64,000 nt of DNA from Agaricus subrufescens (taxonomy: Eukaryota; Basidiomycota; Agaricomycetes; Agaricales; Agaricaceae). The first letter of the stretch is position 1, and every line of letters starts with the position of its first letter. Positions 18,448-50,508 of the stretch are shown in pieces. Location: the NCBI GenBank assembly GCA_029945375.1, contig CM057058.1, forward strand, positions 4,420,734-4,484,733, written 5' to 3'. The notes under the pieces were generated by a model. The model did not search any database. It was not told the origin of the DNA and worked only from the letters and a program-made list of their open reading frames with translations. The position numbers and the translations under genes are program-made.

Positions 18448-18671
18448 CACTGCACCGACAAGTCAATAAATCATGTGTAGTATTGATGACTAATTAAAGT
18501 TAAATAGTTTAGTAAGCAAAAATATTTAAAATTTTATATCAATGACTTATTTTGGTTCGGACATCAATATGTGATCAATAACAACCAAAGTGTATAAATA
18601 TTTTATCGTGAAACTATTGATGTGCATATTGAATATATATTTAATACATATTTTGGCGGAGTCCAAAATAA
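18448..18671 (+). repeat. Left terminal inverted repeat
   Basis: AT-rich arm of about 224 bp matching the inverted right end. Shared landmarks in the same order: CACTGC, GACAAGTCAAT, GCAAAAATATTTAAA, GGACATCAATAT, TATTGAA, and CGGAGTYCAAAAT. It is diverged from the right arm, so the element is not a very recent insertion, or its ends evolve fast. Confidence 0.8.
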
Positions 18672-19353
18672 GTCAAAAATATATTCAAATGTAAATCAAA
18701 GTCGTATTGAAATGGAATGCTATATATGTACATCATAAGTTAGGCATCACATCTATATTATATTGAGCACATGTTGAAAAGAATCCACTGGGAGAATCGT
18801 CTCGTCGACCACGATTTGATGCATTTTTTACCTGACGATTCAACTCACAATTCCTACTTCTAAACCAAAGTTGTAGCTTGGTTATCTGCTGGGGATTCGT
18901 ATTGGGGAATCGAGTGAAGGTTTGCAGTCAATTCTCCGGTAGAGTCGGCTGACGCATTGACAAATGACTTGATGAGTGAATGCAATGCAGAATCAACGAG
19001 TCGAATGCAGTTTAACTGGGATCTAATCAGCAACACTTTTCACGCATTCAAATAAACTATCCTCCCCACAACAAGTGTAAGGAAGAGGCTCCTCACAGAC
19101 TTAGCAATAGTCGGCTCAATTAGCCACGAGCGGACTGAGTAGACAGGGACTCGTAAAAGGGCCCTACAGGCGGACGATGGCTGAGGCGACCAAATAAAAC
19201 CACAACAATGAGGATCAACACTCACGGCTCAACGCGTCGAGCTTCCTCATTTTTCCTTACATCCAACTCTTAAAACGCCAATCTAATGACAGAACATCTC
19301 TGTAAAATGAATAGTGAGTTTTTTTCTCAAACAACGTCAGCACTACTCACTAG
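18672..19353. other. Left subterminal region
   Basis: No gene. It contains short motifs resembling the right subterminal region, for example GGGGATTCGTATTGGGGAAT near 18890 against the right-end series GGGATTTGGCAGAAAAAGGG. Such repeats usually bind CACTA transposase; the resemblance here is partial. Confidence 0.35.
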
Positions 19354-19713
19354 TATGCTATAGACCGAGACACAGAGTTTGTACTACAGGGCAAAGGCGA
19401 ATCTGCAGGCAAAGAAAACGGGAATCTAGCACAAGGAGACGTCGGTAATCAAACTTTGGACAACTACGGGTTTAGGAGCGATGAGCACGATAATGGCTAC
19501 GAAGGAGACAACGAATCTTGCATATGTGAGCTCCAGGGGCCTGATGACGATAGCTGTGACAGTGAGCCGGCCAAGGGCAGAGTCGAGAACGAATTTCAGA
19601 GTGTCAATGGCAACGGCAATTCTGGAAGATCTTGGGAACTGGGCGAGGGTGAAGTTGAAAACGGTGGATATGATGGTGACGATGAAGCTGATGATGAAGA
19701 CGTTTCGATGTAG
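19354..19713 (+). CDS. Acidic-tailed orphan protein (family C, left copy), fragment
   Basis: An open frame that can begin after an acceptor (CACTAG, ending 19353) encodes a Gly/Asn/Glu-rich protein ending with an acidic tail, GYDGDDEADDEDVSM, and a TAG at 19711-19713. Two minus-strand frames near the right end of the element finish with similar tails (YADDKDDDKFD, YADDEEDDDFD). The position therefore mirrors those copies. No start codon was found for it and the upstream exons are unclear. Similarity could be plain acidic bias, so this is weak. Confidence 0.3.
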   Translation, partial: YAIDRDTEFVLQGKGESAGKENGNLAQGDVGNQTLDNYGFRSDEHDNGYEGDNESCICELQGPDDDSCDSEPAKGRVENEFQSVNGNGNSGRSWELGEGEVENGGYDGDDEADDEDVSM

Positions 19714-20263
19714 TTGGCAACTATTCGGCGCAACTGTTACAAAAATCATGGCGCGTTTCAAATCGCGAGAGGAGAAGATACTAAGTACGGCTGTGATACT
19801 GAAGTTTGGCTGGTAGGAACTTACTGTGGCGAACATATTTTGTGTAGTCGGACAATTCCTGCATAATGAAAGATCTCGATGTAGATATCGTGGACATATT
19901 GACGTAAGGCCCAAGTGCGTTTGAATGCCAGCCGTGAGGAGAGGGCGAGAAAGATCTATTGAGAGGGTATGACGACAAGGGTTTTCTTCAATGAAAAAGA
20001 CTTGTCTGCAGATACGTAATTCGCCATCTGGCTCCTAGAGATTATATTCGTCATCTAAAGATTAAATAAGAATAGTTTATGCGGACGAACGGTGAGAGGA
20101 CAATTGGACCAAAGCTTGGAGGTTTCAGTATAAATAACAAACTCTACAGTGTTAGTCGTCAACCTGAGCATTAGACATGTATCTGTTATGTACACAATTT
20201 CTTCACGACCAAAACTGAAATGATTATCGATCATCTGAACCGTTGCACTTTCTTTTGCCACCG
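19714..20263. other. Region between convergent family C and B genes
   Basis: No separate gene supported. It holds the presumed 3' ends of the plus-strand acidic frame and the minus-strand B1 gene. A long minus-strand frame opposite the acidic ORF (19426-19914) is hydrophobic only because it is the complement of acidic codons. Confidence 0.35.
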
Positions 20264-20832
20264 TTAAGTGTCCGTTGTGAACAAGCCCTGGGTCCTGCCG
20301 TGAGGTAACCAAGTTAGCGTTGTTGTAAAACACACTTACTAACTCACCTGTTTAAGAGATCGGAATCGGATGTGGCGCACGCAACTCGGCCGTGGAAGGT
20401 TCTCAATTCAGAGCATCTACGCAAGTCGCTACGGCCCTTTCTAACGAACCTCTGAGTGAGCTCATGCAATAGTCTTGATAAGTGCTCTAGACGGCCTTGT
20501 ATGTTATGCAAGTAAGGCGTCCCGGGATCGTTGATGTCTGAGCCGGTGACTTGTCGCAACTGCATCTCAACTGTGAAAAGATAATTCAGGTTGTAGAATT
20601 GTTGGACAGCTTGTAGCCAACGGGGGAAAATACCCTCGAAATCGACCGTCGACACTGAGAAAGGAGAGCGAGATTGGCAACTACGAAACAAACACGACGA
20701 AAAAGGATCGGCATCCGCTGATGATGAAGCTGAAGATTAGTGTCAATGGTGTGTCAGTCACCAGCTACTGACCGCAGCGAATCTCGAGGTCCATACGGAG
20801 TCAGCGCGATAGATAGTCTCCTGAATCTCCAT
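20264..20832 (-). CDS. Family B orphan protein, copy B1
   Basis: Three or four exons on the minus strand. Start MEIQETIYRADSVWTSRFAA at 20832, then a main exon (about 20645-20344) with FPRWLQAVQQFYNLN, LEHLSRLLHELTQRF, CSELRTFHGRVACATS and DSDLLNR at the donor, and a short last exon adding TQGLFTTDT before TAA at 20264. The neighbour B2 has RWFQVVQSLHQLN, LGRVSDLLQETI, CKRLRTYYNK and NVLNR at the same intron position, so the two are paralogues. Mostly alpha-helical; function unknown. The join between first and second coding exons is not settled. Compared with B2 it lacks the long acidic N-terminal half. Confidence 0.5.
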
Positions 20833-21459: not shown

Positions 21460-22735
21460 CTAATAAGGTCTAGGCATAGCTTGGTTCCTGTACACAAACA
21501 GGATTAGAGCCGCTGATAATACAATAATAAGACTCACCGATTTAAAACGTTAATATTGGGCGCAGCATGTAAAATTTTGTTGTAATACGTTCGCAACCTT
21601 TTACACCTCCGCAAGTTGCGCAACCCATCCCAAGTAGATCTACAAATAGTCTCCTGTAGCAGGTCTGACACCCGCCCTAAATAGAGTTGGCCTTGGAGAA
21701 GACTGGGCGATTCTCGTATGGACATTCTGAGTATTACCTGTTGGTTTAACTGGTGTAAACTCTGTACCACTTGAAACCAACGAAGGGAGTCAACCTCAAA
21801 CGTTGCTTCTAACCTCTTCAAGTCACGAGTAGCCACCACAAATTTATTGTAAAAGACCCCAGCACCCATGCCAATGCGTTCTATTGTCCACGTACGACGA
21901 CGCGCAAGAGGAGGATAAAGAACCGACATGCTGTAAGTTAGATTAGTCAACGATGAAGAATCAGTCCAATTTTACTCACTATGTGTCGATGGTTTCTGTC
22001 TGCTCCTTCAGCGCTAGTGAACTTTCAATGCAACGAGTGATATGGTCCATAAATGTTTCTATGATTCCGGTCATTCTATTTTCTGACGTAGTATCTTCAT
22101 GACCATTGACATGAAATGAAAGCTCTGCGACACAAGCTTTCAGTTCTCCAAATATCGATAACAGCTTTGTGGTATTGTCGTGGTGTGACAGTGTGTCGAT
22201 AAATTGATTGTGATCATTGTTACCAAGATCACTATCATCTTCATCGCCGATTAGAGAAACAAAGTCACAGACACCATTACTTTCATTGCCCACTTCCTCG
22301 GCGTCTGGCGCAGTATCACTATCGTCATGTTGTTGGGGAAAGAGAATGTCGGCAGATGGAGGAACTGGCATTACAGAAACAGCGCGTGTACACAAGAACG
22401 CTCCCAGCATGAAGAGGGTGAATCTATCTTGTGCCGGTAGAACAGAGGTATCCCAATTGCCAGCAGTCTGTTGAAATACTGAGAATAAAGTGGCTCTGGA
22501 CGACTCACACTTACGGACAACTCCTGGGGTCTGGGCATCGGTTCCAGAGTATCCTGGTGACATAGTGATTCACGGGGCAGAAGCGTGAAGCCTCCACCGG
22601 GGATGAATCGGATCGCTTCAACGTCACCTGAAAAGAAGGGATGTCAGAATTCAGATGGTTTAGTAGAATAAGCAAGACAGTACCTATGGGTCCAGGTATC
22701 ATCAATGAGGTGTATTGCTCTGATTGAGAAGACAT
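21460..22735 (-). CDS. Family B orphan protein, copy B2 (long form)
   Basis: Starts MSSQSEQYTSLMIPGPIG at ATG 22735, continues across an intron to DVEAIRFIPGGGFTLLPRES, then TAGNWDTSVLPAQDRFTLFM with a moderately hydrophobic stretch LFMLGAFLCTRAVSVMPVP. An acidic segment rich in Asp follows (DDSDTAPDAEE, GDEDDSDLG), then helical sequence MDHITRCIESSLALKEQTE. The next exon (21935-21534) has RWFQVVQSLHQLNQQ and ends NVLNR, and the last exon adds NQAMPRPY before TAG at 21460. About 370 residues, five exons, all with good GT-AG borders. Paralogous to B1 and to fragments B3 and B4 at the other end. No known domain recognised; mostly helical with a possible membrane-associated segment. Confidence 0.6.
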
Positions 22736-23219: not shown

Positions 23220-24620
23220 AATCTAACTGAGCATCGTTAACTAGAAAGTCGAGTCAAGTCCCGGGAAGTGGATAAGGCATCTTTGGTCAATATCTTCCAG
23301 TGGAAACGTTCTCTTTGGTCATTCAGTCTGCGCTTTTAATCTAGAATGGGCCTCACCAAAATCCATGCGGAGTCTATGGGATATTATGGTTACATTGATC
23401 CAAAGAGAAAGACACCAGCTAGATGTTATACTTGACAGACACGGGTTTTCATTGTCGCCAGCCTAGATGCCAATCAATCGTCGTATGACCAGAAAAAGGG
23501 AAATATCAGAGAGTCCAAGCTCCCGAGGGTACTTACGGCTGCACAGTTCGGAACCTACATATATATGATCATCGTTACCTGTAACTACTATTTTCAACAG
23601 GGAATAAACGCACCTCAGGTTCTTCGATGTCCGGTGGAGGATGGTGCGAAGACAATGATTCCAAGGGAACAGTCATCGCGACAAACATCTGAAGAACAAG
23701 AACGCAAGGGTGATAAGCACTCTTTGTTCTATGAAATTGATGTCAAAGCTGCGAAGGGCATAACGCAACCTTCGACAATCCATCTAATGGAGGATTTGGT
23801 ATGCTCTCCACAAAACAAACGCCGAACGCAGGGTAATGTTGAAGGGCCGCTGGCACACTTCATCAGATGGCGATAACTTCAAAGGGCTGTAAGCTCTCTC
23901 TGAAATGTGCTGGAGGACACATGTACTCTCCCGCGTCATAGGAAAGGGGTAAGCTAGCCAGAAACATGGAGATAGGTTTGAAAGAACAAGTGGTAAGCCA
24001 TCACGCATGTGACCAAGTGGTCGAATGATGATTCGCTCTGATTCGCTGCTTCAGAATTTGCACGTGTTCACGCATGATGCCGAGTCTCCAAATCTCCTAA
24101 GCGATTCTCCAAAAGAGAGAGAATACCCAACATGATTATGAATTCGGAATTTAAGATAATTCAAGAACAGCTAGGGACTGTATAGCTAAGAAGTAAAGTT
24201 AACAGGAATTGTGTAATGTGAGTATCACTAAGAACACTGAATGACGTAGGGATACACTTGTACAAGGCGGTCCTTCAAACCACGTATATGACCGTCTTGA
24301 ACTGTTACGACCATCGCCTCGCTCATAAGGCTTAGGTCGGCTCTGGTCCTCTGGGCGTCGACACGATCAAGGACAGTAAGGAGATCGAGCCCCGATACTG
24401 AACTTTTGAACCCAAAAGCAGCACCTATTCCCATAGGAATGATACGGTGACGAAGTGAAGACTCAGTAGATGCAATCAGGCGGCGACGGACATGCAATAA
24501 AGCCTCTTGTAGATAGTCCAAGTAGAGCTGCGCTTCTTTGATTTCCCCTCGGGACTGCGCCAACTGAGCTAGTCTGGGTTCAAAATCACAGGCGACATCT
24601 TGGACCCTTTGGTCGATGGT
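23220..24620 (-). repeat. Left arm of 1.3-kb inverted duplication
   Basis: Reverse-complemented, this segment matches 44860-46150 over its whole length, through both the coding end of gene A and the downstream non-coding part. Landmarks: QSRGEIKEAQLYLDYLQEAL against QSRGEFKEAQLYLDYLQKAL; the CACCATCCTCCACCRGACAT block; and RGATTAAAAGCRCAGACTGA. Divergence is moderate, with both substitutions and small indels. Confidence 0.75.
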
Positions 24621-26280
24621 TGATCGTAAGAACAGCAGTTGATTACGGGAGAACGAAAATAGTTGCTTTGCAACAGAGATTCTGTCCAGAAAACAGTAAG
24701 CCGGCTAATCCACTGTGGCATTCGCATGGCCTACCTTTCATTGACTTCATCATTAACATCACTGACCCGTTGCATCAGCTTTGAGGATCTGGAAGATGCA
24801 TCTAGAACAACTGCCAAAATGTTCGAAATAAATTGTTTGTCCTCGAGGTGACTGTCTTGCACCGTTCCAGCGAGCTCTACTACTAACGACTCGAGTCTGC
24901 CCAATTCCAATGTAGAAGCCACAGTAGAAGTCAAAATTGGCGCAGTGGGTCGGGCAAGCGAATCGGTAACACGTTGGAATGATAGAGCCACTCCCATGAC
25001 AACTAAAACAACAAATAAGACGCCCTGAAGGCACGATACAAATGACTATACAGGATACTGTGAGCTCGATATTCCTTCATAAGAAATTTAACTGACCGGA
25101 AATCTGATGGGTGATCTGCGTGGACCCATAGGAAGAGTCGTCAAGGATAAAGCTCTGGTAGTTACTGAAAGATCCGTAAGAGTGATTCTAAAGCTGGTAG
25201 GGTACTACTTGCACGAGGTGTTTCCGACAACATCAGTTATTTGATTACGTTCAGCTTCTGCATAAGGTATTAACCAATGTCTACTCAACTTGGTCCGGAA
25301 CAGCACTTACCATAATGTCCTGGAAGAGTGTCAGCTATGGCATGAGGAAGATTCGAGGTGTACGCGTCCGCTGGCAGTCCCTCGCTGATGGGTGAAGACA
25401 TGGGCCAGTCTTCCATGCGGTGAGGACTAGTAGACAGAAGTGAAAATTCACTCCGCAAAGCGGGGTCTTCTTCAAAGGATGGTGCATAAGAGACTGGTGA
25501 ATCCATATTGAAATCTTCGTCCTCGGGCTCGCCAAGTGTCAAGGTATTGTCGGAGGGAATAATATATAGGGTAGATGAAGCTGATGCTTCGGCAGTAGAA
25601 GCTCCTTGAAAAGGCTGTGATGGATTATCCCCTTCACTGAGGCTACCAGTGTTCAAGGAAGCGTTAACAGAAGGGATGAATACCTCTGGCTCAGAAGTCC
25701 CTGCTTGGAATGTTTGTAGCGAAACCGTTTGGTAATCGAGGGTAAAAGAACCTTCACTTTCCAAAGTGGGGTCGTCCTCGAAAGACGATACATGAGAGAC
25801 TGGCGAGTTTGCGCTGAGATCTCCATTGCTGGTCCAGCCGGGGCTCATGAGATCGTCGGGGGAAGGAATGTATAGCGTAGTTGAGTCGGGGACTCCGGCA
25901 GTTGAAGCAGTTTCTTGTAAGGAATGTAATGGAATATCGCTTTCACTGAACCCGCCAGTGTTCAAAGAAGCATTCACGGGTAGAACGGGCACCCCTGTCG
26001 CAGAAGTTCCTGCCTGGAATGATTGTAGTGAGACCGTTTGGTAATCGAAGGTAACGAAACCATTCACTGAAATGAGATATTAGCAATGAGATTGGCAAAA
26101 CATCAAGGCTTGTTTTGTAAGAGCGAAGAACTTACAAGCTGTTTTGAAAGCGTTATTGACTAGTTCCATGTCAACAATGTCAGGGGGCTCTACGGAGGCT
26201 TTTGTAGGCCTCGTTTGCAAAGCTAAGCGCTTGGCATGCCTCGTCCGGCGAGGTGTTAAATAAGGAGTGAATCTCGGCAT
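23879..26280 (-). CDS. Family A orphan membrane protein with tandem repeats
   Basis: Start ATG 26280 (MPRFTPYLTPRRTRHAKRLA, basic). A large exon (about 26057-25311) encodes two 103-residue tandem repeats, each starting DYQTVSLQ(S/T)FQAGTS and containing VNASLNTG, TLYI and SPVS. Then short exons lead to ERNQITDVVGNTSC, a basic stretch PMGPRRSPIRFP and one membrane helix GVLFVVLVVMGVALSF (about 25010-24965). The C-terminal half is helical: STLELGRLESLVVELAGTVQ, ILAVVLDASSRSSKLMQRVS, DFEPRLAQLAQSRGEIKEAQ, GIGAAFGFKSSVSGLDLLT and VQDGHIRGLK. Probable end RELTAL with TGA at 23879. Orientation predicts a disordered acidic/Ser-rich side and a helical side split by one membrane span. No known family recognised. 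Exon joins near 25.2 and 24.1 kb are my reconstruction. Confidence 0.6.
25440..26060 (-). repeat. Two tandem 309-bp coding repeats in gene A
   Basis: The same series recurs with a period of 309 bases (103 codons), for example TTGGAATGTTTGTAG at 25705 and CTGGAATGATTGTAG at 26014. Being a multiple of three, the duplication keeps the frame. The two units differ at many positions. Confidence 0.75.
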
Positions 26281-27148: not shown

Positions 27149-29437
27149 TCAAGGAAACAAGTGAGGGACACAAGCAGCTCTACCAAAATAGTCGAAGAAA
27201 GTTTGGCAATAGAAATCAGCTACCAAAGACTCGACGCGTTCAACGTTGACCTTGGCCCATGGTCCCTGGTTGTTAACGTCTGTAGTAAATAGACTCTGTG
27301 GGGCATTTGGCCAGTCGACGACGACATTCCGAAGAGCTGAGATATATGGCCGCCTCTCCTCCCAATCGCCAGAAGATAAACCATACGGGTGTTGAGGTAG
27401 ATCGACAGTGAAAAGGCTTTCATGAACAAAAACGCTGCGGAGTTTGTTCTCTCGAAGAAGTGCGCCGTCTGTGGTACGCCAGTCATCAACCAAAACACAC
27501 CGATCAAGGTTAAATAATTCAAGATTAAAATTGTGCTGCTGCACATCCCAGGCAACCAGCTGGCGGTCCCGTAGGTCAAAATCAATTTTCCCCTGGTGCC
27601 AGACAACTCGACCATTCCAACTTATAGTTTCCACATCTGCCTTCTCTGGGGTTCTGATACAAAATATCGTTTTGGCAATCTCACGAGATTTTGCGTTACG
27701 GCGGGCAGTACGGGAAACCTTTCCATGTCCCTCCGTTGGAGTAAAACGTTGGCGTGTGTGAGGACGGAGGAGCTCGAGCTCTAACATGATGTCGCGCAAG
27801 TAAGACCGCCATTGGTGGATGTGAGGCAACGGAACGGTACGAGGTCGGAAATCGCCCATGTGACTCAACCACCGGGTACGGATTAAAAGCCAGGCAAGGA
27901 CATTCTCCATGCTCTTGTTTTCATCGCCACACAGTATATAGGAACTCGGAAATGCATATCCTTTGAAAATGGAGCGTCGAGGGTGTTCGATAGGACGACG
28001 ACGTACATCGACCTTTTTCAAAGCGTTTGCCCAGGAATCGGATGGCTTAGAACTATACGCTGACGTTGGTGGTTGGAACGGAGCTAGATTAATTGAGTTG
28101 TCCGTTACTTTCATGGCGACTCGCTCGATTGCCTGCGCCTTTGAATCTACACATGGTCAGACTTCAGGAAAGAAAGTCGTGAGAATGCTCACATGGTTGG
28201 GCCCGCTGCCCATATTTGCCCGTACTGTTTTTTTGAAGACCGGATGTGTTTTGAGGACGAGCAGTTGTTTGAACATAAGAAGTGGAGGTGGAAGCAGTGC
28301 TTGAGGGGACAAGTACCGATTGCACCGAATGAGGAAGGTGAGCTTGACCAGTCTCCTGAGTTGAAGTGACTGAGTTTTCGTCGGCCACCGGGGTCATGTC
28401 TGCTTGACCTGGTTTCCATTTGTAGATTCCAAGATACATGTTGCCAGACAAAGGGCCACTATAAAAGACCGGGGCTCCAGTCATGCGCTTGACGACAATA
28501 CCTGCTTGGACAGGTTCTTTGGGGTACGCCTGATCTATGATAGTTGCGTCGTCCGACACTTGAGATGGGCGTCGAACAAGCCAGACAGGCACTCCCTTTT
28601 CATACATTTCATGAGCGACTTGAACACGATCAGTAATGCAGCCCATTAGTTCATTGTTGGCCTCAGGGTAACCTTCGTGATTCGGGACCATATGATCAAA
28701 TTTTGTGATCTTGTCTAAGAGTGCGCGAACCTCGAGGAAGCATCGTTGGGCCCATGTAACGTTCAACTTCATCGTAAAGTAGCTCGAGGAGCCAAATTTG
28801 AGGGCGGCGACGCAACCACGCATCTGGGCGGCGGCTATTTGAAGTTTCTGATGGTCCGATCCATTGCTACACTCGCAAGACTCGACTTCTTCCATGAACT
28901 TGGTGCGGAGCTCGTAAAATTGCTCTGCTATAGTTGGGTTGAGACGTCCATCATCGTCTCCGCCACCTTCCGAATTAGGATCAAAGTGGCAACTGCCAAT
29001 GTCCAACCATAGCTGTCGAAGGGGGTGAGAGTACAAGTGGCTGGGCTTGGGTTTACGAAGGATATAAGCCAAGTGTTCTTGACCATCGAAATACCACTGA
29101 GGCCATTGAGCCCAGTCCTCTGCTCCCCAGCGTCCGTCGTCACAGATTGTGATTACTTGCTTTTCGAGATGAATTTGAGGTAGATAATCGGCATTGGGAG
29201 TGCTGATGACCAGTCTATCACTCTTATTAGCCAGAGTGTCGACACCTTTGGTGTGTGCTGATATATATCTTGACTTGAGCTGGCCAATCAATCGCGCGTC
29301 CGTTACTTGAATCTGACCTGAGATATCTTAAGCAGTTTCGACCAAATTTTATGAACACGCATGTACGTACTATCATTCGGGCGACAGAATGAGGCGAAGA
29401 TAAGATTTCCAGCATTGTCGACTACTCTCGGTGGCAT
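27149..29437 (-). CDS. Fungal orphan protein, transposon cargo
   Basis: Start ATG 29437 (MPPRVVDNAGNLIFASFCRP), intron, then NISGQIQVTDARLIGQLKSR and a long exon to about 28165, intron, then a second long exon ending with TGA at 27149. About 690 residues. Seen: DDGRWGAEDWAQWPQWYFDG, a helical middle (AAAQMRGCVAALKFGSSSYF, VRALLDKITKFDHMVPNHEG), then YEKGVPVWLVRRPSQV, which separates the halves, and GPLSGNMYLGIYKWKPG. A Ser/Thr-rich linker lies at the exon border, and the C-terminal part has many Trp (WNGRVVWHQGKIDFDLRDRQ). No enzyme motif recognised. I recall similar 'VPVW.VR' proteins as common, uncharacterised agaricomycete proteins, often near transposons; that is memory, not a search result. 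A further short exon beyond 27149 cannot be excluded. Confidence 0.65.
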
Positions 29438-33573: not shown

Positions 33574-33862
33574 GGCGGTTGAAGTCGATGGTAATGCGTG
33601 CCCTTTGACGATCGGGTTTTATATACGTGCGTCGGCCCGTATCGCAAGTGATCCGTCGTCTCTACGTCTTTGTCCATAACGGGGACAAGGTTCTCAAAAG
33701 GTGAGTTAGGAGTAAGATTATAATCAAGGCATGACCGGGAAACCCTGGGGAAACCAGCGACTGGGACCTAGTGATAGCCGGTGCCATTGTTTACGGATAG
33801 CCGGTGACTATATTTATGCATGGACCCTCTTTGAACTTTCGCCATCAATCCCTTTCATCGCC

Positions 33863-37024: not shown

Positions 37025-40000
37025 ATGAGAACGTACGTCTATTCTTTTAATGCTTTCTACCGTTGGTGAACCTTTTTGTAGTGATAGCAGTGCACCGGAA
37101 CGGCGTAAGGAGAGAGCCTTTGATCCTCTACGTCGATCGTGCGAGGCAGAGTCCAATGATGCAAAACATGCCATACCAGAAAAACGTAAGCAGAGAGCCT
37201 TTCATGCTGTACGTCGATCTTGTGGGCCAAGGTCAAAAACAAGCCGTCAGTCAGCTAGAGGCACACATGACGAGGCTACCAATAATTCGAGCGGATCTGG
37301 TGGAAAAGCATTTGTAAACGTACCTGAGCCGCAAGATGAAGAGCATGGTATGTTCCATCCAACCACTTTTTCTACTATCCTTTACTGATTTTTCGAAGGT
37401 CACAGCCTCCACCAACAACCTGAATCGTTATTCCTTCCGGAAAGTACCCCTGAACATTCGGTAAAGTGGGAAGACACCGAGGTGGAGCTTGAGAGAGATG
37501 CTGAAAATATGTCTTTTGACGGTTTCGACACTCCTACCACAAACATTCTATTTTCGCGAGCCTCATCAACTCAATCCGGTCCTACCGTTACGCAATCATG
37601 TGAAACAAGATCCCCCACAATGCTCATCGTTCCTGCTGTATCTCCTTCGCTACATCAGCTCGGCTCTCCTTTAGAGTTTAGGTCGGACGATGGGATCGAC
37701 ATAATGGATGAAGTCGAGGAGTGTGATCGGATGGAAATTGAAGAAGACTACAACAAAGCCCAAAAAATGACGATTACAGAAGCAAACGATGAGCGATCAA
37801 ATCCAGGTGAATCACCTATCGCAAGGAGTAGTGTGCCCCAGAAACGTAGTCGGGAAGACGGCTCATGCCGCGAGCAAGGAATGTCAAAGAAATTCCACTA
37901 CGAAACACGAGACAATGTTTCCGGTTCACTCGACGTTGCACTCCCCGAGTCTAGTTATACAACAGGTGTGGCATTGTCGTGATCCGAGTTACATGTATTG
38001 ATACTTGTCAAGGTGTTCCCCGGCTCGATTTGAGGATCGCGTCAAAGCATCGTAGAGGCATCTCAAAGCAGCCCCGTGCCGCTGTGAAAACCTCAATTGA
38101 ATACGACAGTTCGTCTCAGCCTGTACCACGTGGTGAACGCCGGGAAATGATTCGTATGGAAATTGGTGGGGCTCAAAGCTTCTGGGATCATCCACCAGCG
38201 CATGGAGCAGAGGTCCGAGCAGTCGTGAAATCAAAGGGACTGGAAAGGACAGCTATCAATAAGGAAGATAAGGTGGCCGTGAGATTAAAAAGGAAAGCAG
38301 ACATACCAATCGACGTGACCAAGGAGGGAGGTAAAGGGCGTGTTGCAGAAGAAGAAAAAGAGGACGTCAGAGAGGAAATGGATCGGAGTGGGAGTGGAAG
38401 TAGTATATGGAAGTTTGCTGTTGACGACACAGGCGAGCGGAACGGTCGTAAGCTAGATGGGTCGCAAGAGGCAACGGACAACGAGGAAGAAGAAGTAGTG
38501 GAAGAAGAGATAAAAGTATTAGCAATGAAGAGGAAACCAGAGGTTGACGTGTCGGAGGAAGGAATGAAGGGGAAGGATCCAGAAGAAAGGCCGGAGGGTG
38601 TTGGAGAAAATTTGAATCCGAAAGAAAGGAGAGGCAATATTTGGAACTTTCCTATCGACGATAGAGGATCAATGGATGACGAGGCATCTAATGGGGAGGC
38701 TGATGTAGAGCATGCAAATCACGAAGACCACAATCTCGAACTTACGACCGAGGAAGAAGCAGAAGGCAGAATGGACCCCTTGGCGATGAAATTTGCCAAT
38801 TATAGGGTGCAGGAGTCAGTAGAGAAAGAAATGTCAATTGGTTAGTCTTTGTTCCTACGTGTTTTTGTATATTGGTTCCTAATTTACACACGTTCAAAGA
38901 TATGCGGGTCGACAGAGACGCGGGTGCGCAAATTTTCTTCATTGTCCTGCTCTATCTCATAATATTTAGAAACTACTGAAGATAGTACGAAACGCTTTAG
39001 GCCACGGATTCAGCGTTATGAAGCATTTGAGCGTCAGCAATCCATCGTTGTAAGTAGTTCTGTTTTACCTTTTTACCGAGGTATCCATGCACACTAGTGT
39101 CAGGATTGTGGCAAATGCAAATCCTGTGGTCAGCTACTCGAAGGTCGAACGCTCGGAGGCGATAGTGATACGGGCGATCAAGTTATATCGCCTGCTGTCA
39201 GAATGTTGTCAAAGTCCAAGCAATCTCGGCATCGAGCCACCGCAAAATCTTTCACAGACGAACGCTGTAGTCCGGAAGACGGTTCGGGGGATACAGTAAA
39301 AGGGAGCAACAAGGCAGAGCACAAAATATATACACCCAAACGTCGCCCTGCCGATGATAATGAATTCAAGGTTAGTTGCAGATGCTCTCTTCTTCACTCT
39401 GGCTTAATACAGCCTAGGCCGAAATTCGAAGGGAGATTGCCTATTTGTTCAATACGGAAAATCCAGATATCCGTGTGGCCGCCCCCCAGCAGGTTAGGTG
39501 TTTTGCGAACACCAACAAGGCAGTAGACGGCCCACAACTAGATGATATATTTTTCGATTTTGATGGCCCCTCCCCAGTCACGCCTTGGAATATTCGCATC
39601 GCCCACTTACTTACCAAAAGATACGTTGCACAACCGGGCGTCATGGTCAAGGACGAAGTCAGAGTCAAGAAAGCCTTCACTCAACGTCTTCGAAAGTTAC
39701 ATGTGTCCTATCAACGATCTCTAAGAACTTTGTCATCCGACGAAATCACTGCAGGAGAGGCTAAAACGCGCCTTGTTAATCAAAAAACGCGACAGTACTA
39801 TGTGAGCTGTTTCATTATATCCGGTTAACTTTCTAACTTATAGACGGCGCAGCAAAGGAACAGACGTGAAAAGGTTGCTTTAACCTTAGCTACAAAAGGA
39901 CCCACCATGGCCAGGCATGCACAATTATGGAAGACTATACCTCAGGAAGCATGTAGTGAAGATGAGGAAATCACGTATGCTACTGGCACACGGTTCGAGA

Positions 40001-40403
40001 AACGCACTCCGTTTTGGCGGAACCTAGATGCACAAGATTTCTTTGCAGTCTGGGATCATTTGGATATCGCGCAGAGGTATGGGCCCGATGGTAAACCTAA
40101 GGGCAAGGGCAGGTTCCCCCGTTACCGCCATCAACCGAATCCACCCCGCAAGAACATCGACGCGCCTATTGCTCCTGGACTTCCGCTTAATTTTTACGAT
40201 CCACTTTGGTACAGCACCCTCGACGAGATTGAAAAAGAGGCCGTTAATGCTCGGCCTCCGATTGATTTAACATTACCTCGAGGCATCCTTCGGTATGTGT
40301 CACAGTCGTCTGATACCCCTGCCACACGGACTGATTGTATCACAGCTTTGGTCAAAGGCATGCCCATATAAGGACTCGTGATGATCGCCCACTGCCAGCT
40401 TGA
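37025..40403 (+). CDS. Large transposon accessory protein (TnpA-like position)
   Basis: About 1,000 residues in nine or more exons. Start MRTDSSAPERRKERAFDPLR (ATG 37025), with an internal duplication ERRKERAFDPLRRSC and EKRKQRAFHAVRRSC. A long disordered acidic part follows, with two related units SGSSIWKFAVDDTGER and RRGNIWNFPIDDRGS. Then a Cys cluster CQDCGKCKSC that may bind zinc, and a conserved-looking C-terminal domain: AEIRREIAYLFNTENPDIRV, DDIFFDFDGPSPVTPWNIRI, LHVSYQRSLRTLSSDEI, RTPFWRNLDAQDFFAVWDHL and DPLWYSTLDEIEKEA. Likely end PLPA with TGA at 40401-40403 (an unspliced reading ends at 40371). It lies 75 bp before the transposase on the same strand. Plant CACTA elements pair tnpD with a tnpA that binds subterminal repeats; I infer a similar role from position and the basic and Cys-rich segments, not from sequence identity. 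Confidence 0.62.
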
Positions 40404-40477: not shown

Positions 40478-43400
40478 ATGGCCCCAAACTTTTGTCGTTG
40501 CCCTCAGTGTGGTCCAGATGGCCGCCGTCTTGGTACCATCGAGTTCCAAATCCATCAAGTGTCGGATAATCGTCATGAAGCTCTTGCCCACATTCCAAGT
40601 GAAAGCAGTGCTGAGCTTACATCACTTGATTCACCGACATTCTTGGTAGACGTCGGCCAACCGTCGGGACTTCATAATCACCCCACATCACCAGCACGTT
40701 ATGCCGCCGCATGGGCATGGCTAGCCCAAGTTGATGCCCAGCTACTCCAACGAAACGCATCCATCCTCAGAGGCCGACTCCGATCTCACTCATTCAGATT
40801 CTCTATCCCGCCTCGCAGTCAGACGCACCTGTATCCTCTCGTTGACCCCACGGTACTTGCACTCGATGACAACTCGCAGCACAATCGTTTGGTTATAAGC
40901 CACGATCGATGGTTAGAACAACAGAAATTAGCTGGTCATTCATACTTGAAGGATTGCATTGGAGATACGTCCTTATCACGGGAACTTATACTCATGTTAA
41001 AACGATTGCGACGTGATAGTACCGAGATTTCTTCTATGAAGCAGCTCGAATGGGAAAGGCAACGGTGTATAGCTTCAGAGGTCAATCAAGTAGATCCAGG
41101 TAAGAGCATTTGCTCGTCTTAACTTTCCTCGCTTATGCGCTACAACAGGGCCATATATGGATTCACCATTTTCCAGTATGGAACCTTGGGTAGCACTTTG
41201 GTATATTCTAGTGCTCTCCCTCCACCTACTTTCTGGCGTATCTCTGAAGATTTGCACATTCTATTTCTCCGGCTTAAAGCAGCAACCGAATGTTTTTGAC
41301 GTGCCCAAAGAGGTCGAGGTGCAATGTCAGTCCCTGCCCGGCACCGTTGAAACCATCGTCAAGCGAACCAATATCACTCCGAAATTCAAATCCTTCATTT
41401 GTTGTCCTAACTGTTTCTCGCTTTACGACCATGAAGATGGGGTCCCGCGAGTCTGCACCTCCGTTGAGGATCCTGGCGGTCCTACATGTGGAGCTGCCTT
41501 GTACAAAAACAGCACTAACAAGCCTGTTCGCGAGTATATCATGCATGACTTCAAAGACTGGCTTGCCCGACTATACGCAAGACCTGGTATGGAAGAGTAT
41601 CTCGACAGGGATGTTTACGGTTCCACTACAGAAATGAATGATATTTGGGATGGATCTGTTCTGAGGAGCTTTAACGGCACAGACGGCAAATTGTTTGTGC
41701 CCCACGGACGTAGACATGTAGAGGGGCGGTTAATTTTTAGCCTCAACATGGACTCTTTCAATCCCTTTGGAAACATGCAAAACGGCAAGCACGTCTCCAT
41801 TGGCGCCATTTACATGACTTGTCTTAATCTCCCACGCGAGCTCCGGAACAAAATGGAGAATATCTTTCTCGTTGGTATCATTCCGGGACCTAACGAACCT
41901 TCCCTCACGCAAATCAATCATATTACCAAGCCCCTTATCGATGTTCTACTTGAGCTCTGGATGCCTGGCGTTTATTTGCGCCGAACTCGTAAATACCCGA
42001 GAGGTAGAAGAGTGAAGGCTGCCGTTGTTCCCCTGGTTTCCGACCTCCTTGCTGCAAAGAAGATGGCTGCATTCGCGAGTGCTACATCCAAAAACTTCTG
42101 CTCCCATTGTCACATAACACTCAACGAGATACACAATCTCGATTACTGGACTTGGAAGCGACGAACTTGGAATGAACATCTCATGAATGCCAATGCCTGG
42201 AAGAATGCTTTGACCAGCGAAGAGCGGGATAGGATCTTCGCCAACTATGGGGTGCGATGGTCAGAATTATTGCGACTACCATATTGGGACCCATCGTCAT
42301 TTGTTGTCATTGATTCGATGCATTGTTTCTACCTGGGTTTGTTCAACCGACACGCCGTTCAAGTATGGGGTATGGATGCAACAAAAGATGACAGCGACAG
42401 CACCGTTCACAAGCTTAAGGCTCCAAATGAGGGAGCGATGCAGGCAATGGCATTCTTTCAAGCGAATGACCTTTCAAGGCTAGCTAGCTCATCCTGGAAC
42501 GCCCTCGCCTTTGTATGTGCCAGTTTGGGCATTCCTTGTGATGGAACAAAGGAGGATATGCTCCTGCGACTCAAAAACGTGAGCTTCCCTGTCGATTAAT
42601 CTCTTGACCACGACTGAAGCCAAAGCATCTCAGCGGTGGAACGACAGCAATGCGCTAGGCTCAACTCAAATACCTATCTCTGTAAGTATTTGACCGGATA
42701 TTTGGATATGGACTCTCCCTTATTCTGATATTTGGCGATCAAGAAGGTTGCCACGTCGAGTAACAGCGTCACCCCACTTCAAGCCATGCAAACAATCCTA
42801 GAGATACCCTCAATCGATGTGGACAATGTCACAGAATCAAACTTATCAAAAGAGGAGGCCACGAATCTCTGGCATAATGCCACGAAATCCAAATTGAGAA
42901 GTCGCAAAAAGGGCGATCTTCTAGCTATACTACTTCATCAAGGGGTCGCTCGAGCTGAACTTGAAACATTAAAGAAGAATGATTTGTTTGACAAGATTCA
43001 AGCACTGGTAATCCGCCGAACATATGCTTAAGAATACCTATTGACTATTTTCTCAGCGGAAGGAGCAACGCATCATTGATATTAATGAGAAAAAACTACG
43101 AGTGGGGAACCCAGTAAAAACATCTCGACTCACCCGTCAATCATCTTCAATAATTATCAGCCAAGACCATGGTTACGTGAAAGCGGCAATCCCGGCAGCT
43201 GTAGAACGCCACCTCCTGGCACATGGGCATGTCGAAGGCACGGTTTCAGTTGTACGTTTACTGTTTAGTCGGATAGGTTTCTGTTCCTCTGACCCCGACT
43301 TTAGCCCCCCCGAACAGCACCGGACATAGCAGGGAATACCGAAAAATATGTTTTAGGCAAGACGATGATTCCAAAGATCCGCGAAGACATGGGTCGGTTG

Positions 43401-44591
43401 ATCATTCCTTCATGGGTACCAAAAGGTCCAGCACACCCTGGTGAAGCAAAGGGGGGGAAACTTCACGCTGATCAATGGCGTTCTTTCTTCACCATCAATC
43501 TCCCCATAACCTTGCTCAGACTGTGGGGCGGTGATTATGCTGAAAGCAAGAAAGGACAAATGTTGGGGAATTTTTTCCATCTAGTCACTGCAGTAGAACT
43601 TGCCTCACGCCGCACTGTAACAGAGAGGCATGTTCGGCTTTATGAGGAACACATGCATCAGTATTTGGTAACATTATCACGGTTGTTCCCTAAAACCAAG
43701 CTAGTCCCTAATCAACATAACGCCCTACACTTTGGAGAGTATCTCCGACGTTTCGGCCCTACGCACGGATGGAGGTGTTTTGCCTTTGAACGCTTCAATT
43801 ATCTACTCCAACAGACTAGCACCAACAAGATCGTTGGTTCGTGTGGTTACTTATATCCCAAAACACGTTGCTGACATGTCTCTCCAGGTAAAATAGAGGG
43901 AACCATGTTCCGCAAATTCTGCATGGCCCAAAACCTTCGCTCGCTCTACAACTCAGGGCGGCTTCCAGACCAGTTACGTTTGCTGGTTGATAAATTTTCC
44001 ACAACTTTCAATCACGACTTACGTGGCACTCTCTTGAACGAAGACTCGAACAATCATTCATCAGACTGTGATCTGCGTCGCATGAAGGAAGGAATTTTAT
44101 CCAGAGAAACGTATCAATTACTTGTTTCTTGGACAAAAATTCATGATTCTCAAGTATTCAAAGAGTTGTCTCGCAAAGTTCTGTATCTCAACGCCATCTA
44201 CCGTGATGTTGTGTATAAAATTCATCGGCGATCTCCTCCCGACAGTCACATCATCTTCACTCTTGATGACACCGACGAAGGAAAACCTGGCTACATTGAG
44301 TGCATATTTACTCACAGCCGCACGACAACAGATGGTAAACAACAGGAAGACACGTTTATTGTGGTACATCCCTACCAGACCGTGTCCTTACAAGAACCAT
44401 ATCAGAATGTTTCTCTCCATATGACAAAGTTTTCCTCTGCTTCTGGGTTTTTTTTCCGAAAAACACAGTTGCCTCCAACTCTTATTGTCATGAACCAGAT
44501 TCGCGGTCATTTTGGCTTTGCACTTACGGACTATGACAATGAGCAACATTCGCAGATATTCCAGGGTCTTCCTCTTTTTAAGGTCTGTTGA
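40478..44591 (+). CDS. CACTA/EnSpm transposase, TNP2-like
   Basis: DDE/D-type enzyme that cuts and joins the transposon ends. About 1,240 residues in seven exons, first intron 41100-41148. The N-terminus has a zinc-like motif CRCPQCGPDG, then FICCPNCFSLY...C...C as a second Cys cluster. The catalytic core carries LIFSLNMDSFNPFGNMQ (first Asp), the VSIGAIYMTCLNLPRELRN block, IPGPNEPSL, CSHCHITL, and VVIDSMHCFYLGLFNRH (second Asp). Later come IREDMGRLIIPSWVP, LHADQWRSFFTINLPITLLR, LVPNQHNALHFGEYLRRFGP and FERFNYLLQ (the likely acidic residue of the third motif). These order and spacings are those of TNP2 (Transposase_21-like) proteins. Between core halves lies a small helical insert, SKLRSRKKGDLLAILLHQG, reminiscent of SAP DNA-binding motifs. 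All exons are open and borders good, so it looks intact. The tail ends GLPLFKVC with TGA at 44589. Confidence 0.92.
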
Positions 44592-44859: not shown

Positions 44860-45499
44860 TCAAGGTTGAAGATGTTGCCTGTGATTTTGAACCCAGACTA
44901 GCTCAGTTGGCGCAGTCTCGAGGGGAGTTCAAAGAGGCGCAGCTCTACTTGGACTATCTGCAAAAGGCTTTATTGCATGTCTGTTGTCGTCTGATTGCAT
45001 CTACGGAGTCTTCAATTCGTCATTGTATCATTCCTACGGGAATAGGTGCTGCTTTTGGGCTCAAAAGTTCAGTATCGGGGCTCGATCTCCTTACATCTCT
45101 TCGATCGCATGGACGCCCAGAGGATCAAAGCCAACCTAAGCCTTATGAATAAGGCGATGATCCTCACAGTTCAAGACGGCCATATACGTGGATTGAAGAC
45201 CCTTAACCATTCTCGAATTAATTTGAGATTTCGAGTTCATTATCATGTTGGGTATTCTCTCCCTCTTGGAGAAGTCGCGTAGGAGATTCGGAGATTCGGC
45301 ATCACGCGCAAACACGTGCAAACTCTGGAGCAACGAATCAGAGCAATTCATTAGTCATATGCTCCCACAAGCGCAGAGCGGCTGCACATTGTTCCTTCAA
45401 ACCCATCTTCATGTTTCTGATCAGCTTACTCTTTTCCTATGACGCAGGAGAGTACGTATGTCCTCCAGTGCGCTTCAGAGAGAGCTTACAGCCCTTTGA
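44860..45499 (+). pseudogene. Family A copy A', truncated and frameshifted
   Basis: Encodes DFEPRLAQLAQSRGEFKEAQ, LYLDYLQKALLHVCCRLIAS and GIGAAFGLKSSVSGLDLLT, then the frame is lost: the continuation FDRMDAQRIKANLSLMNKAM, LTVQDGHIRGLK lies in another frame. The intact copy (23879-26280) reads straight through here. The upstream exons, with the tandem repeats and membrane helix, are missing. A TGA at 45497 corresponds to the end of the intact copy. It starts only about 270 bp after the transposase. Confidence 0.55.
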
Positions 45500-46150
45500 A
45501 GTCATCATCATCTGATGAAGTGTGCCAGAGCCCTTCAACATTACCCTGTGTTCGACGTCTGTTTCGTGGAGAGCATGCCGAATCCTCCACTAGATAGACT
45601 GTCAGAGGTTGCGCTATACCCTTCGCGGTTTTTGCACCAATTCTATAGAACCATGAGAGCTTATCGCCCTTGGGTCTGTGTTCTTCAGATGTATGTCGTG
45701 ACGATTGTTCTTTCAGGATCATTATTTTCACACCATCCTCCACCAGACATTGAAGAATCTGAGGTGCGTTTATTCCTTGTTGAAATGGTAGTTACAGCTA
45801 ACGATGACCATATATATGTAGGTTCCAAGCTGTGCAGCTGTAAGTATCCCTTGAGAACTTGGACTCACTCTCTGACCTCCCTCTTCCCGGCTACACGACG
45901 ATTGATTAGCATCTAAGCTGGCGACAATGGTGACTCATGTCTCTCAAGCACAACATCCAATTAAACATCTTTCTCTTCGGACCAATGTAACCACAACTCT
46001 ACCGAATAGACTCCGCACGAAGTTTTGTGAGGCCTCTTCTAGATTAAAAGCACAGACTGAATGATCAAAGAGAATCTTTCTAGTACAGTAACACTGACCA
46101 TGACTATATATGGGGGTTACTCAGATTTTATGAGATTGACTCGACGTTGA
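44860..46150 (+). repeat. Right arm of 1.3-kb inverted duplication
   Basis: Matches the reverse complement of 23220-24620. The match covers the coding end of family A, the following non-coding stretch, and the block CTTCTAGATTAAAAGCACAG near 46035. This is one of the paired segments that make the ends of the element mirror each other. Confidence 0.75.
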
Positions 46151-47683: not shown

Positions 47684-47798
47684 CATATGCTGCATCCGAC
47701 TCCGATCTTTTAGATAGGTAAGTCTAGATGAGAGCTTTACGACCGTGCTAACTCTACATTCTGATGGCAGGACCCAAGGCTCGTCCCTTTGTTTCTAA
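47684..47798 (+). CDS. Family B fragment B4
   Basis: Exon VAYAASDSDLLDR with donor GTAAGT (47718), last exon 47771-47798 adding TQGSSLCF and TAA. Closely related to B3 and B1 in both exons and in the intron. Upstream exons were not identified with confidence (a possible one lies at 47470-47612). Confidence 0.35.
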
Positions 47799-48420: not shown

Positions 48421-48975
48421 TCAGTCAAAATCATCGTCTTCTTCGTCGTCAGCATAGTAGCCATCCTTGGTGTCTTCATTTTTCACCTTGCACTTCGTCA
48501 TACTCGCTCTCTTTTTTGATATGCCCCCCTTTGACCGCCCCCCGCCAGCAATTGATAATCCGTCAGCGTTGTCTGATATATCGGCTTCATACTCTGCCTC
48601 CTGTGTGTAGACCCCAATGTTCTCTGTATTGCCGTTCTTAAACTGCCCTAAAGGTAGGCATTAGAAGTCCGGATCTTCATGAGGTCCCAGTAAACTTACT
48701 ATGCTTAACATCCATGGTCTGCGACGTTCGATTGTACTGGTCAGTGTAGAAATGACTGTAAGTCTAATTTTTGTCCGCGGCCTGTTGTAGCATTGTTTGG
48801 CTCTAACATCAGTCGGGAGAACCTTCCCTTCGCTAGTCATCAGTACCTCATCTAGAATTGCTGCCCATGAACGCTTACTAGCAGGCCCCCTCCCCCATAC
48901 GTCGCCATTATCACTGTCTCGCGTACGTCTCTCATCACTCACTCTCCCCAAGGCCCTCTTCACTGTCTCCCACAG
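48421..48975 (-). CDS. Family C orphan protein C4, acidic tail (5' end missing)
   Basis: Three linked exons on the minus strand: LWETVKRALGRVSDERRTRD...SWAAILDEVLMTSEGKVLPT (from 48975), YNRTSQTMDVKH, and RQFKNGNTENIGVYTQEAEY...YYADDEEDDDFD with TGA at 48421. Donors and acceptors are good (donor GTTAGA, acceptor GACCAG near 48735; donor GTAAGT near 48700; acceptor CTTTAG near 48653). The first exon opens after an acceptor (GCTAG), so an upstream exon should exist beyond 48976 but was not found. Charged and mostly disordered; function unknown. It converges on B4 as the left C frame converges on B1. Confidence 0.45.
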
Positions 48976-49098
48976 CTAGCACGGGCACTGGACTCACTAT
49001 AATTATCCACCGCTGTAGTCAAGACAGTCACATCCGACCGCCAGAGATCACAAGGATTCAACGTTGAGCTGAACAGTCTCTTTCCACCGGGAAAGACC

Positions 49099-49941
49099 GT
49101 GGTGAACCCATATCCTCAGTGTCGCCGAGAGGACAGCGAGAGCCTGTGCCCACAACGAGACCCCCTCTCCTATCTCCCACATCCGCGCCGACCCCCATGC
49201 CAGGCTCTCCAATGCGGCCTCCACTCGCAGCTTCCTCCCCCAGGGCGAGTCCCGCTATTCACACTCTCCTACCACAGCCGTCGTGCTTTCAGAGTCCTCC
49301 TGCCCTCCTTCCCAAGCTTCCAGTCCACCTCCTTTTACCGCACGGCCACTCGTGAAAAAGAACCTGCACCGACATCCAGCAATGTCCTGTCTCCCCTGCT
49401 CAACCTGTGCACGTGGTTCACTCTGTATTCTGGTTGGAACACTCCAAGACGCGTCGTACCTTAATCAGTGGCCTCTATCAGATGTTAAAACCAAATGGCG
49501 GTAAGCTAAAAGGTCCAGAGAGGATATTTTGACTCACCGCTCCCTAATCCTTACTCCTGCTCCACTCATAGACGAATCCATCAATACTGACCCTGACCTT
49601 GACCGAGTGGCATTAAAAGAGCATCCTTCCGGTGCAGTGGAGCACGGGGTGGTAAATGGGAAGGTAAATGAGAGAACGAGAACGAGCGAGATAGATCAAG
49701 TGGGGATGAGGTCCTTTCTGCGAGGCAAAGGTGAGCGACTGCTGTATTGTGGCAATGGGAACTGAAAATCAAAATGAATTACGACAGAGACGAGAGTTTG
49801 GAATTCGTCTGCTGGGTCAACCTCGGAAGTCTCTCCTTGGCAGCGTAGGATGTAAGTACGGTTTACGATTAGTCTATTTCACTCACCATCTCAATTCCTG
49901 TTAGCCTAGTTCTACTTGTTCATTAAGCAACTACCCAACTC
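49099..49941 (+). CDS. Possible Pro/Ser-rich gene near right end (exons unresolved)
   Basis: Open frames rich in Pro and Ser (PTTRPPLLSPTSAPTPMPGS, MRPPLAASSPRASPA, FTARPLVKKNL) are followed by pieces with good splice signals: RVALKEHPSGAVEHGVVNGK, RTSEIDQVGMRSFLRGK (donor near 49731), and ETRVWNSSAGSTSEVSPWQR (donor GTAAGT near 49852). The last two join in frame, while the Pro-rich part could not be joined. It might be a fifth orphan family or a decayed one. Confidence 0.25.
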
Positions 49942-50286
49942 TAGTAAAATATCCGCTCGAATCTCTTCAATCCCTTTTTCTGCCAAATCCCAAACTGATT
50001 CCTTAGTCGACGCCAGTCGAATCACCAGTAGACAATTCAATTCTACGACTACATTCGCTCTAACATTGATTCAACAATGTCACAATTCTTCACTGAATCA
50101 ATTTTCCCTAACCGATTCACAAATTGAACTCAAGGTGAATCACTAGTCAAATCGTCAGTCGACAATATGACTCTCTCTTTAATATTTATAGAATAAAGTC
50201 ATGATGTGACCCCCGTCTTATTATAAACATATACAGCAACCCGTTTTAATACGTCATCTATTTTCGTCTAAACATATCATTGTAAT

Positions 50287-50508
50287 ATTTTGAACTCCGA
50301 TCAGATATGTATTCAATAGTCGTTCAATATATTTACTGATAAGTCAAATATGAATTATTTATATGTGTGGACCAATATTGATTCAATATTGATGTCCAGA
50401 GAAAAATATCTTATCAATATATAACTTTAAATATTTTTGCCAAGTAATTTATTTGACTTCAATAAGTTATCAATGCAATACGTGTTTCATTGACTTGTCA
50501 GCGCAGTG
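50287..50508 (-). repeat. Right terminal inverted repeat
   Basis: AT-rich arm of about 222 bp, inverted match of 18448-18671, ending CAGTG at 50504-50508. Inside it, about 49950-50160, lie repeated motifs of the type RGTGATTCRACT (both TCGAATCACCAGT and GGTGAATCACTAGTC), which look like subterminal transposase-binding repeats. Confidence 0.8.

Follow-up and report, generated by a model that had tools for sequence, protein, structure and literature searches.

How a single transposon in a mushroom genome comes to be 32 kilobases (kb) long and to hold some ten genes besides its transposase is the question raised by the 64,000-nucleotide stretch of Agaricus subrufescens DNA analysed here (GenBank assembly GCA_029945375.1, contig CM057058.1, positions 4,420,734 to 4,484,733; hereafter the window). 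CACTA elements are normally seen as one or two transposition genes together with small captured fragments. A previous interpretation made from the letters of the window (the sequence-only reading) had proposed that positions 18448-50508 are a CACTA-type transposon with a multi-gene cargo. We call this copy, which is 32,061 base pairs (bp) long, element A, and the further copies in the same genome B, C, D, D2, E, E2, F and G. In our view it is likely that A is an autonomous giant CACTA (EnSpm) transposon with a TNP2 transposase and with a standing module of accessory genes that serves the transposon.

The classification of A depends on its transposase and its ends. The transposase is encoded as follows:

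40478..44591, + strand: TNP2-type DDE transposase gene, about 1,200 amino acids (aa), several exons, modelled as 173 + 1043 aa; PF02992; ratio of non-synonymous to synonymous divergence (dN/dS) 0.13-0.23

A Pfam scan covering 40 of the 76 open reading frames (ORFs) of at least 90 aa inside A, plus five spliced gene models, places PF02992 (Transposase_21) in the ORF at 41094-42596 (+) with E=3.1e-12 and 46.6 bits, above the cut-off of 28.6. In an alignment with 36 homologues (37 sequences, 34-37 of them aligned per column) the residues D199, D296, C315/C318 (C2C) and H770/H774 (H3H) are invariant, while E794 is kept in 33 of 34 aligned sequences. The TNP2-like transposase of the sequence-only reading is thus confirmed by the profile match as well as by its conserved catalytic residues. 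According to the available portion of Kojima 2025 (PMC12730594), C(2)C and H(3-4)H motifs lie between the second D and the last E in EnSpm-type transposases, and Plavaka elements end in TGT..ACA or CATCA..TGATG. The termini of A are CACTG..CAGTG and its match to the Plavaka profile PF18759 reaches 17.7 bits, below the cut-off of 26.3, so that A is not placed among the Plavaka elements. A KDZ transposase had no match in the 40 of 76 scanned ORFs, the transposase of A being TNP2; duplication length does not set KDZ elements apart, being 7 bp in Kyakuja (PMC12730594) and 4-8 bp in KDZ2 and KDZ3 of Cryptococcus (PMC12810828).

The left end of A at 18448 reads CACTGCACCGACAAGTCAATAAA and the right end, finishing at 50508, reads TTGACTTGTCAGCGCAGTG. 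The border features are:

18444..18447, no strand: TATA, presumed left target-site duplication; 4-bp duplications also in D, E and F
18448..18753, + strand: left terminal inverted repeat (CACTG...), 306 bp; 213/306 positions agree with the right end read in reverse complement
50203..50508, - strand: right terminal inverted repeat (...CAGTG), 306 bp; from end search and repeat pairing
50509..50512, no strand: TATA, presumed right target-site duplication; from reading of the flank

Hereby, the two termini pair without gaps (70% identity, E=2e-35). The CACTG/CAGTG ends noticed previously are therefore where they had been placed, and the inverted repeats exist as well, although the about 220 bp assigned to them fall short of the length measured.

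To find out how far the family extends, both ends were searched against the source genome (44.65 Mb in 44 contigs, related genomes lying outside the search). Full end pairs frame B (C2:877571-909705) and C (C1:1330572-1362632), and diverged end pairs frame D (C2:743635-770569, 27 kb) and E (C11:229363-258731, 29 kb), so that further full-length relatives with the same ends and a shared core, which the sequence-only reading had suggested looking for, do occur in the same genome. D2 on contig C1 and E2 on contig C19 are second copies of D and E, identical over the end regions compared (3,253 and 4,000 bases for D2, 3,239 and 3,252 bases for E2), and G is a lone end on C3. A, B and C show 0 substitutions over 32 kb, B carrying an extra 74-bp tandem copy. 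The core is collinear between A and E (84% over 21 kb) and between A and D (69-75% in three main pieces, 17 kb); the outer parts of A, D and E differ. CACTG stands at both ends of A and of its sister elements, which agrees with the CACT(A/G) termini of CACTA/EnSpm. The four flanking bases are TATA/TATA for A, B, C and D, TATG/TATG for E and AATC/AATC for F, a 233-bp mini-element at C4:176470-176702 with both family ends and an AATC duplication. Only F resembles the unrelated small elements whose possession of these ends, according to the sequence-only reading, would speak against a transposon; from its sequence it is read as a putative non-autonomous mini-derivative of the family, similar to a miniature inverted-repeat transposable element.

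A pattern of the first 30 end bases, searched through the whole genome with at most 2 mismatches, gave 19 matches and the reversed control pattern 0. Known ends account for 17 of the 19 (two each of A, B, C, D, D2, E, E2 and F, one of G), the remaining two lying on C3 and C12; as the pattern was derived from ends already found, this shows the specificity of the motif more than any novelty. A candidate 160-kb element on C3 with ends at 3906838 and 4066899 was rejected, since its four flanking bases differ (TACG, TAGA). Evidence for movement comes from D. Its joined flanks with one TATA match C6:2295153-2295292, where 189 of 191 joined-flank bases are identical and the mismatches lie 61 and 62 bases from the junction. 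Around this site C6 has matches parallel to C1 and C2, one of them 1,490 bases at 100%. Given this parallel arrangement and the single TATA, the site is an empty site for the 27-kb sister D, and its exactness means that the element family moves.

The genes of A other than the transposase were modelled with a comparative gene finder built on the alignments to D and E, and dN/dS was then measured against both sisters; the values are somewhat favoured, because the finder used the same alignments. The models are:

20264..20794, - strand: g1, 140 aa; dN/dS 0.15 (E, 99/141 codons), 0.21 (D, 104/141 codons)
21979..22735, - strand: g2, 201 aa; dN/dS 0.30 (E, 100/202 codons), 0.41 (D, 107/202 codons)
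24228..25263, - strand: g3, 288 aa, one hydrophobic segment; dN/dS 0.23 (E), 0.21 (D)
25285..26280, - strand: g4, 226 aa, internal 156-nt repeat; dN/dS 0.36 (E, 225 codons), 0.22 (D, 60 codons)
27149..29437, - strand: g5, 729 aa; dN/dS 0.21 (E), 0.14 (D); 25 loci in the genome
30160..31234, - strand: g6, 288 aa, WD40-like beta-propeller; dN/dS 0.12 (E), 0.10 (D)
31825..32804, + strand: g7, 310 aa, SUN (Sad1/UNC) domain preceded by a hydrophobic segment; dN/dS 0.23 (E), 0.18 (D)
33563..34782, + strand: g8, 275 aa; dN/dS 0.16 (E), 0.13 (D)
35542..36715, + strand: g9, 287 aa, coiled-coil-like; dN/dS 0.29 (E), 0.25 (D)
39418..40403, + strand: g10, conserved part, 293 codons; dN/dS 0.09 (E), 0.10 (D)

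The sequence-only reading had counted some ten non-transposase genes, and this number holds with ten models at dN/dS 0.09-0.41, of which g1, g2 and g4 align to the sisters only in part. Seven of the ten are under purifying selection in both sisters: g3, g5, g6, g7, g8, g9 and the conserved part of g10 align over at least 85% of codons in both, with dN/dS 0.09-0.29. Reading frames stay open between sequences that are about one substitution per silent site apart. The upstream exons of the g10 model (37050-39370) are unsupported; the stretch 37406-38704 within them, which served as the non-coding control for dN/dS, gave 0.78 and 13 stops in E.

Three of these genes were characterised further. The SUN domain of g7 is identified by PF07738 (E=8.6e-17), and a profile of seven g7 homologues matches SUN1/SUN2 chains (best E=4.4e-15). 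SUN-domain proteins are otherwise marked by a place in the inner nuclear membrane and by their binding to KASH partners; of these traits, hydropathy of the g7 model shows a hydrophobic segment with a maximum of 1.44 over 19 residues; protein search gave seven SUN relatives, and the predicted fold of the family, with a mean predicted local distance difference test score (pLDDT) of 42, was too poor for a fold search. The g6 protein matches WD40-type profiles (best E=7.9e-11, below their curated cut-offs) and is 43% identical to residues 15-276 of protein P0001, in which a g5 relative follows. For g5 itself, the two long ORFs had no Pfam match, and a profile of its homologues matched no PDB sequence at E=1 or lower; the predicted fold of the 729-aa family (P0002 and seven relatives, mean pLDDT 64) gave no PDB fold match at E<=0.001. 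Its protein relatives comprise eight matches, including five from Leucocoprinus and two from Macrolepiota; altogether, the named protein relatives of the element genes come from Leucocoprinus, Macrolepiota and Agaricus.

The association of these genes with TNP2 extends beyond the copies with recognisable ends. In the source genome 52, 26 and 94 match rows were merged by hand into 25 loci of the 729-aa gene, 20 of the SUN domain and 91 of TNP2. Among the 25 loci of the 729-aa gene, 17 have TNP2 and 12 a SUN domain no more than 20 kb away, and, seen from the transposase, 17 of the 91 TNP2 loci have the 729-aa gene. The probability of 1.8e-13 calculated for the linkage of the 729-aa gene and TNP2 overstates the odds, because near-identical copies were counted as independent; by distance and orientation the 17 linked loci form five or six groups. 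In A, D and E the SUN gene stands between TNP2 and the 729-aa gene, the latter being directed away from the transposase; in the groups of C2:1159k and C5:50k the block is inverted. These other loci may likewise be whole transposons, as their TNP2 linkage suggests. Other lineages stand at C5:50k, C9:2552k, C2:1005k and C11:1713k, at C1:949k, C5:2866k and C29, at C2:1159k, and at C9:66k. In Leucocoprinus birnbaumii, the best TNP2 match, NP233_g8865, is 52% identical over 508 residues and 41% over 505, and NP233_g8867 joins relatives of the WD40 and the 729-aa protein in one protein and in the same order (43% and 41%). Both genes have near-consecutive tags and lie on contigs of 20,984 bases; if these contigs are taken as one, the relative of TNP2 and that of WD40-729 would seem to lie side by side in Leucocoprinus.

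Several loci of the 729-aa gene lie near contig ends (C1:50k, C4:3577k, C10:36k, C8:35k, C5:50k, C9:66k and C9:2552k), and no TNP2 occurs within 20 kb of those on C1, C4, C10 and C8. On contigs of known size, 4 of 15 loci with the 729-aa gene are subtelomeric, compared to 3 of 48 TNP2 loci without it, which is only suggestive of a subtelomeric preference. The strongest of the further SUN-domain loci is on C8.

In the mechanism we propose, TNP2 (40478-44591) would recognise the CACTG ends with their inverted repeats of about 300 bp, cut out the 32-kb element and paste it into a TATA-like target, which would thereby be duplicated by 4 bp; copy A itself may be active in this way. The ten or so other genes would be a standing accessory module of the transposon lineage and would serve the transposon. 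They are kept with the element, selected and exchanged between elements, and therefore belong to the transposon; judged from their sequences, they may act on its transposition, persistence or localisation. The SUN domain and the moderate hydrophobic segment suggest a role at the nuclear envelope. We would guess that the SUN protein sits in the envelope with the WD40 protein as a scaffold, and that this module could hold the element, or the complex that transposes it, at the nuclear periphery or help it through nuclear division or meiosis. A more far-reaching idea, which we hold to be doubtful, is that giant mushroom transposons bring their own SUN-type nuclear-envelope machinery, a WD40 scaffold and the 729-aa protein, whose named relatives so far all come from mushrooms, as a self-serving module that is swapped as a unit; besides nuclear-periphery placement, such a module may be used for biased transmission through nuclear division.

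Several observations weigh against an autonomous CACTA transposon with a standing module. The target duplication is 4 bp, as also seen in the single TATA of the D empty site, instead of the 3 bp usual for EnSpm, and for this reason we call the family of A an atypical CACTA relative, which its transposase and ends would place there without making it a typical member. Searches with joined flanks found no empty site for A, B, C or E in the source genome, so that the empty site for A itself that the sequence-only reading had envisaged was not recovered there. In D, the present models of g8 and of g9 are each interrupted by one in-frame stop. Of the 25 loci of the 729-aa gene, 8 have no TNP2 within 20 kb and 13 no SUN match, and none of the 19 end-motif matches falls at any of the 18 such loci outside A-E2. 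The ends there must therefore have diverged or be missing, and the transposon nature of these loci rests on their TNP2 linkage. Nor have the genes simply descended together. Synonymous divergence (dS) between A and E is 0.21-0.45 for g3-g10, 0.77-1.40 for g1 and g2 and 0.76-0.85 for TNP2, and identity in 1-kb windows is 80-91% at 23.5-40.5 kb and 74-83% at 40.5-44.5 kb. At 22.3-23.5 kb A is nearer to D (89%) than to E (about 74%). As TNP2 and g3-g10 are unequally diverged between A and E, parts have been exchanged, and elements of the family would, by this comparison, swap parts.

The surroundings of A add a further difficulty, for its left flank also stands beside B and C whereas the right flanks differ, which a simple insertion does not explain. 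The common left flank extends over at least 18.4 kb, up to the left edge of the window, past which A reads as N (alignments cover window positions 1-3,000, 5885-18447 against B and 8087-18447 against C, with agreeing spacing in between), and the right flanks diverge directly after TATA. TATA is thus present on both sides, as noted in the sequence-only reading, but with a left flank common to three copies the TATA pair of A alone is weak evidence of a target duplication. The flank pattern is most simply explained by ectopic recombination between copies or by chimaeric assembly over a 32-kb repeat, so that the three identical copies need not be three clean insertions; we consider this somewhat better than an even bet. 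In line with it, single-base differences private to one copy number 7 (A), 7 (B) and 8 (C) in 10,361 bases of the left flank, where A also has a 7-base gap, whereas not one substitution occurs in the 32 kb of the element. Moreover, B and C have their right ends at TATA inside repeats that are uninterrupted elsewhere (two further copies examined for B, one for C), and on their far side these repeats adjoin sequence other than the left flank common to the three copies. Blocks on C1, C2 and C6 that are nearly identical point the same way, C1 and C2 matching at the points probed along about 300 kb. On the other hand, the three different right flanks each start with TATA after CAGTG, as expected for real insertions, and the right flank of A is single-copy in the assembly (2,000 bases tested). 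Recombination or chimaeric assembly is a matter of how the copies arose, and is compatible with an autonomous transposon that keeps its own module. As side observations on the flanks, five of the private differences of C fall within 115 bp, and the parallel near-identical matches run over C1:1.33-1.64 Mb, C2:0.60-0.91 Mb and C6:2.24-2.31 Mb, the last without element D; these blocks may be haplotypes, recent segmental duplications or assembly effects. A composite or macro-transposon, in which left flank and element move as a unit, was considered in view of the common flank but is not supported: the end searches gave no other CACTG end beside a matching flank, and probes placed 11-59 kb farther to the left matched C1 and C2 only.

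Two other explanations of the genes themselves compete with the proposed module. Starships are marked by a tyrosine-recombinase captain (DUF3435) at one end and by a variable load of accessory genes, and A could by analogy be a cargo carrier whose CACTA ends caught host genes by chance, with a variable load that benefits the host. Its large size and gene number would suit this, SUN is an ordinary eukaryotic host domain with more loci in the genome, and 36 of the 76 ORFs of at least 90 aa lay outside the Pfam scan while the outer parts of A, D and E differ. Yet seven of the ten genes align over at least 85% of codons in both diverged sisters under purifying selection, the linkage recurs in several lineages of the genome and apparently in Leucocoprinus, and the 40 of 76 scanned ORFs included no recognisable host gene specific to one element. 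Neither these ORFs nor the five spliced models gave a Pfam match to a tyrosine-recombinase captain, and instead of a variable load A, D and E hold the same core genes, their outer parts yielding no recognised gene in the scanned ORFs. A core that is collinear in A, D and E, is selected, and recurs as linked TNP2, WD40 and 729-aa genes in another genus is a conserved gene complement and not a changing load; hence we regard a cargo carrier as unlikely, and the word "cargo" of the sequence-only reading, taken in the Starship sense, is not upheld. What does stand from that reading is a 32-kb CACTA/TNP2 element with about ten further genes, as borne out by the ends, PF02992 and the gene models. Far less probable still is that a normal cluster of chromosomal genes came by chance to be flanked by two small CACTA ends that are unrelated to each other. 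F, which has both ends without the genes, might be quoted for it, but the same genes are framed by the ends in A, D and E, and the D empty site lacks the whole 27 kb and retains one TATA, which refutes a chance cluster for D and, by analogy, for A.

Apart from its genes, A contains an internal inverted duplication:

23303..24606, no strand: left arm of the internal inverted duplication (partner 44864-46080), from repeat pairs
44864..46080, no strand: right arm of the internal inverted duplication (partner of 23303-24606)

Its arms are 80-92% identical by piece and take in the 3' part of g3, a second copy of which lies near the right end of A. Outside the element, the left flank at 10737-12390 is GC-rich (58% guanine plus cytosine) with ORFs matching C2H2 zinc fingers. 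The right flank at 54491-61543 has ordinary genes (lactonase-like propeller, glycosyl hydrolase family 92, glutamine synthetase domain), and an inverted repeat with 66-nt arms, 91% complementary and 129 nt apart, lies at 59179-59439 of the window.

A CACTA lineage would thus keep about ten extra genes over a large silent-site divergence (dS about 0.9-1.1 between A and D, counting the genes that align over most of their length). Its linked core is present at many loci of the genome and, as it appears, in a second genus too. Should the module indeed act for the transposon, it would allow one to test how transposons make use of nuclear architecture; a further warning is that some lineage-specific "hypothetical proteins" in mushroom genomes are transposon genes. 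Our literature search, in which subscription journals were thinly covered, returned no CACTA element with a SUN or WD40 gene and no giant agaricomycete CACTA; to our knowledge, A would be the first known DNA transposon keeping a SUN-domain gene.

Several known systems come close, as far as the cited papers describe them. CNIRT6, a CACTA element of Cryptococcus neoformans, measures about 7.5 kb, has a gene annotation of 6.9 kb and inverted repeats of 24 bp, and makes 3-bp duplications (PMC12810828). It shares with A the CACTG ends, a DDE transposase of the CMC supergroup and a basidiomycete host, whereas A has 32 kb, 306-bp repeats, 4-bp duplications and about ten more genes. Duplication length varies elsewhere too, being 2 bp in the CACTA-like TRC elements (PMC1636069) and in the related CMC element CNEST (PMC12810828). 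Fungal EnSpm elements have 3-bp duplications and CAC..GTG ends, and some of them, like some fungal transposons of other kinds, carry a TET/JBP gene (Kojima 2025, PMC12730594). Like A, these are fungal DNA transposons with the C(2)C and H(3-4)H motifs and with an accessory gene thought to serve the transposon; unlike in A, that gene is a TET/JBP dioxygenase, for which the 40 of 76 scanned ORFs of A gave no Pfam match. Enlarged EnSpm families with several ORFs are also described in the red alga Chondrus crispus, where they are smaller and have fewer ORFs (16-20 kb, 4-5 ORFs; cited in PMC6431247), and a soybean CACTA element of 20.5 kb by its title (PMC2613891) is large as well, but is a plant element likened to A by size alone. 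Element A is thus larger and more gene-rich than the fungal and algal CACTA cases compared (CNIRT6 and Chondrus), in line with the earlier statement that it is far larger than usual CACTA elements. Starships, reported in the basidiomycete genus Tremella at 41,942-605,797 bp with a captain gene, direct repeats and terminal inverted repeats (PMC13066641), resemble A in being giant and in holding many genes. Unlike them, A uses a DDE transposase and has a core gene set that is conserved and not variable, and its lineage would give fungi, next to Starships, a second and unrelated way of forming giant mobile elements with many genes.

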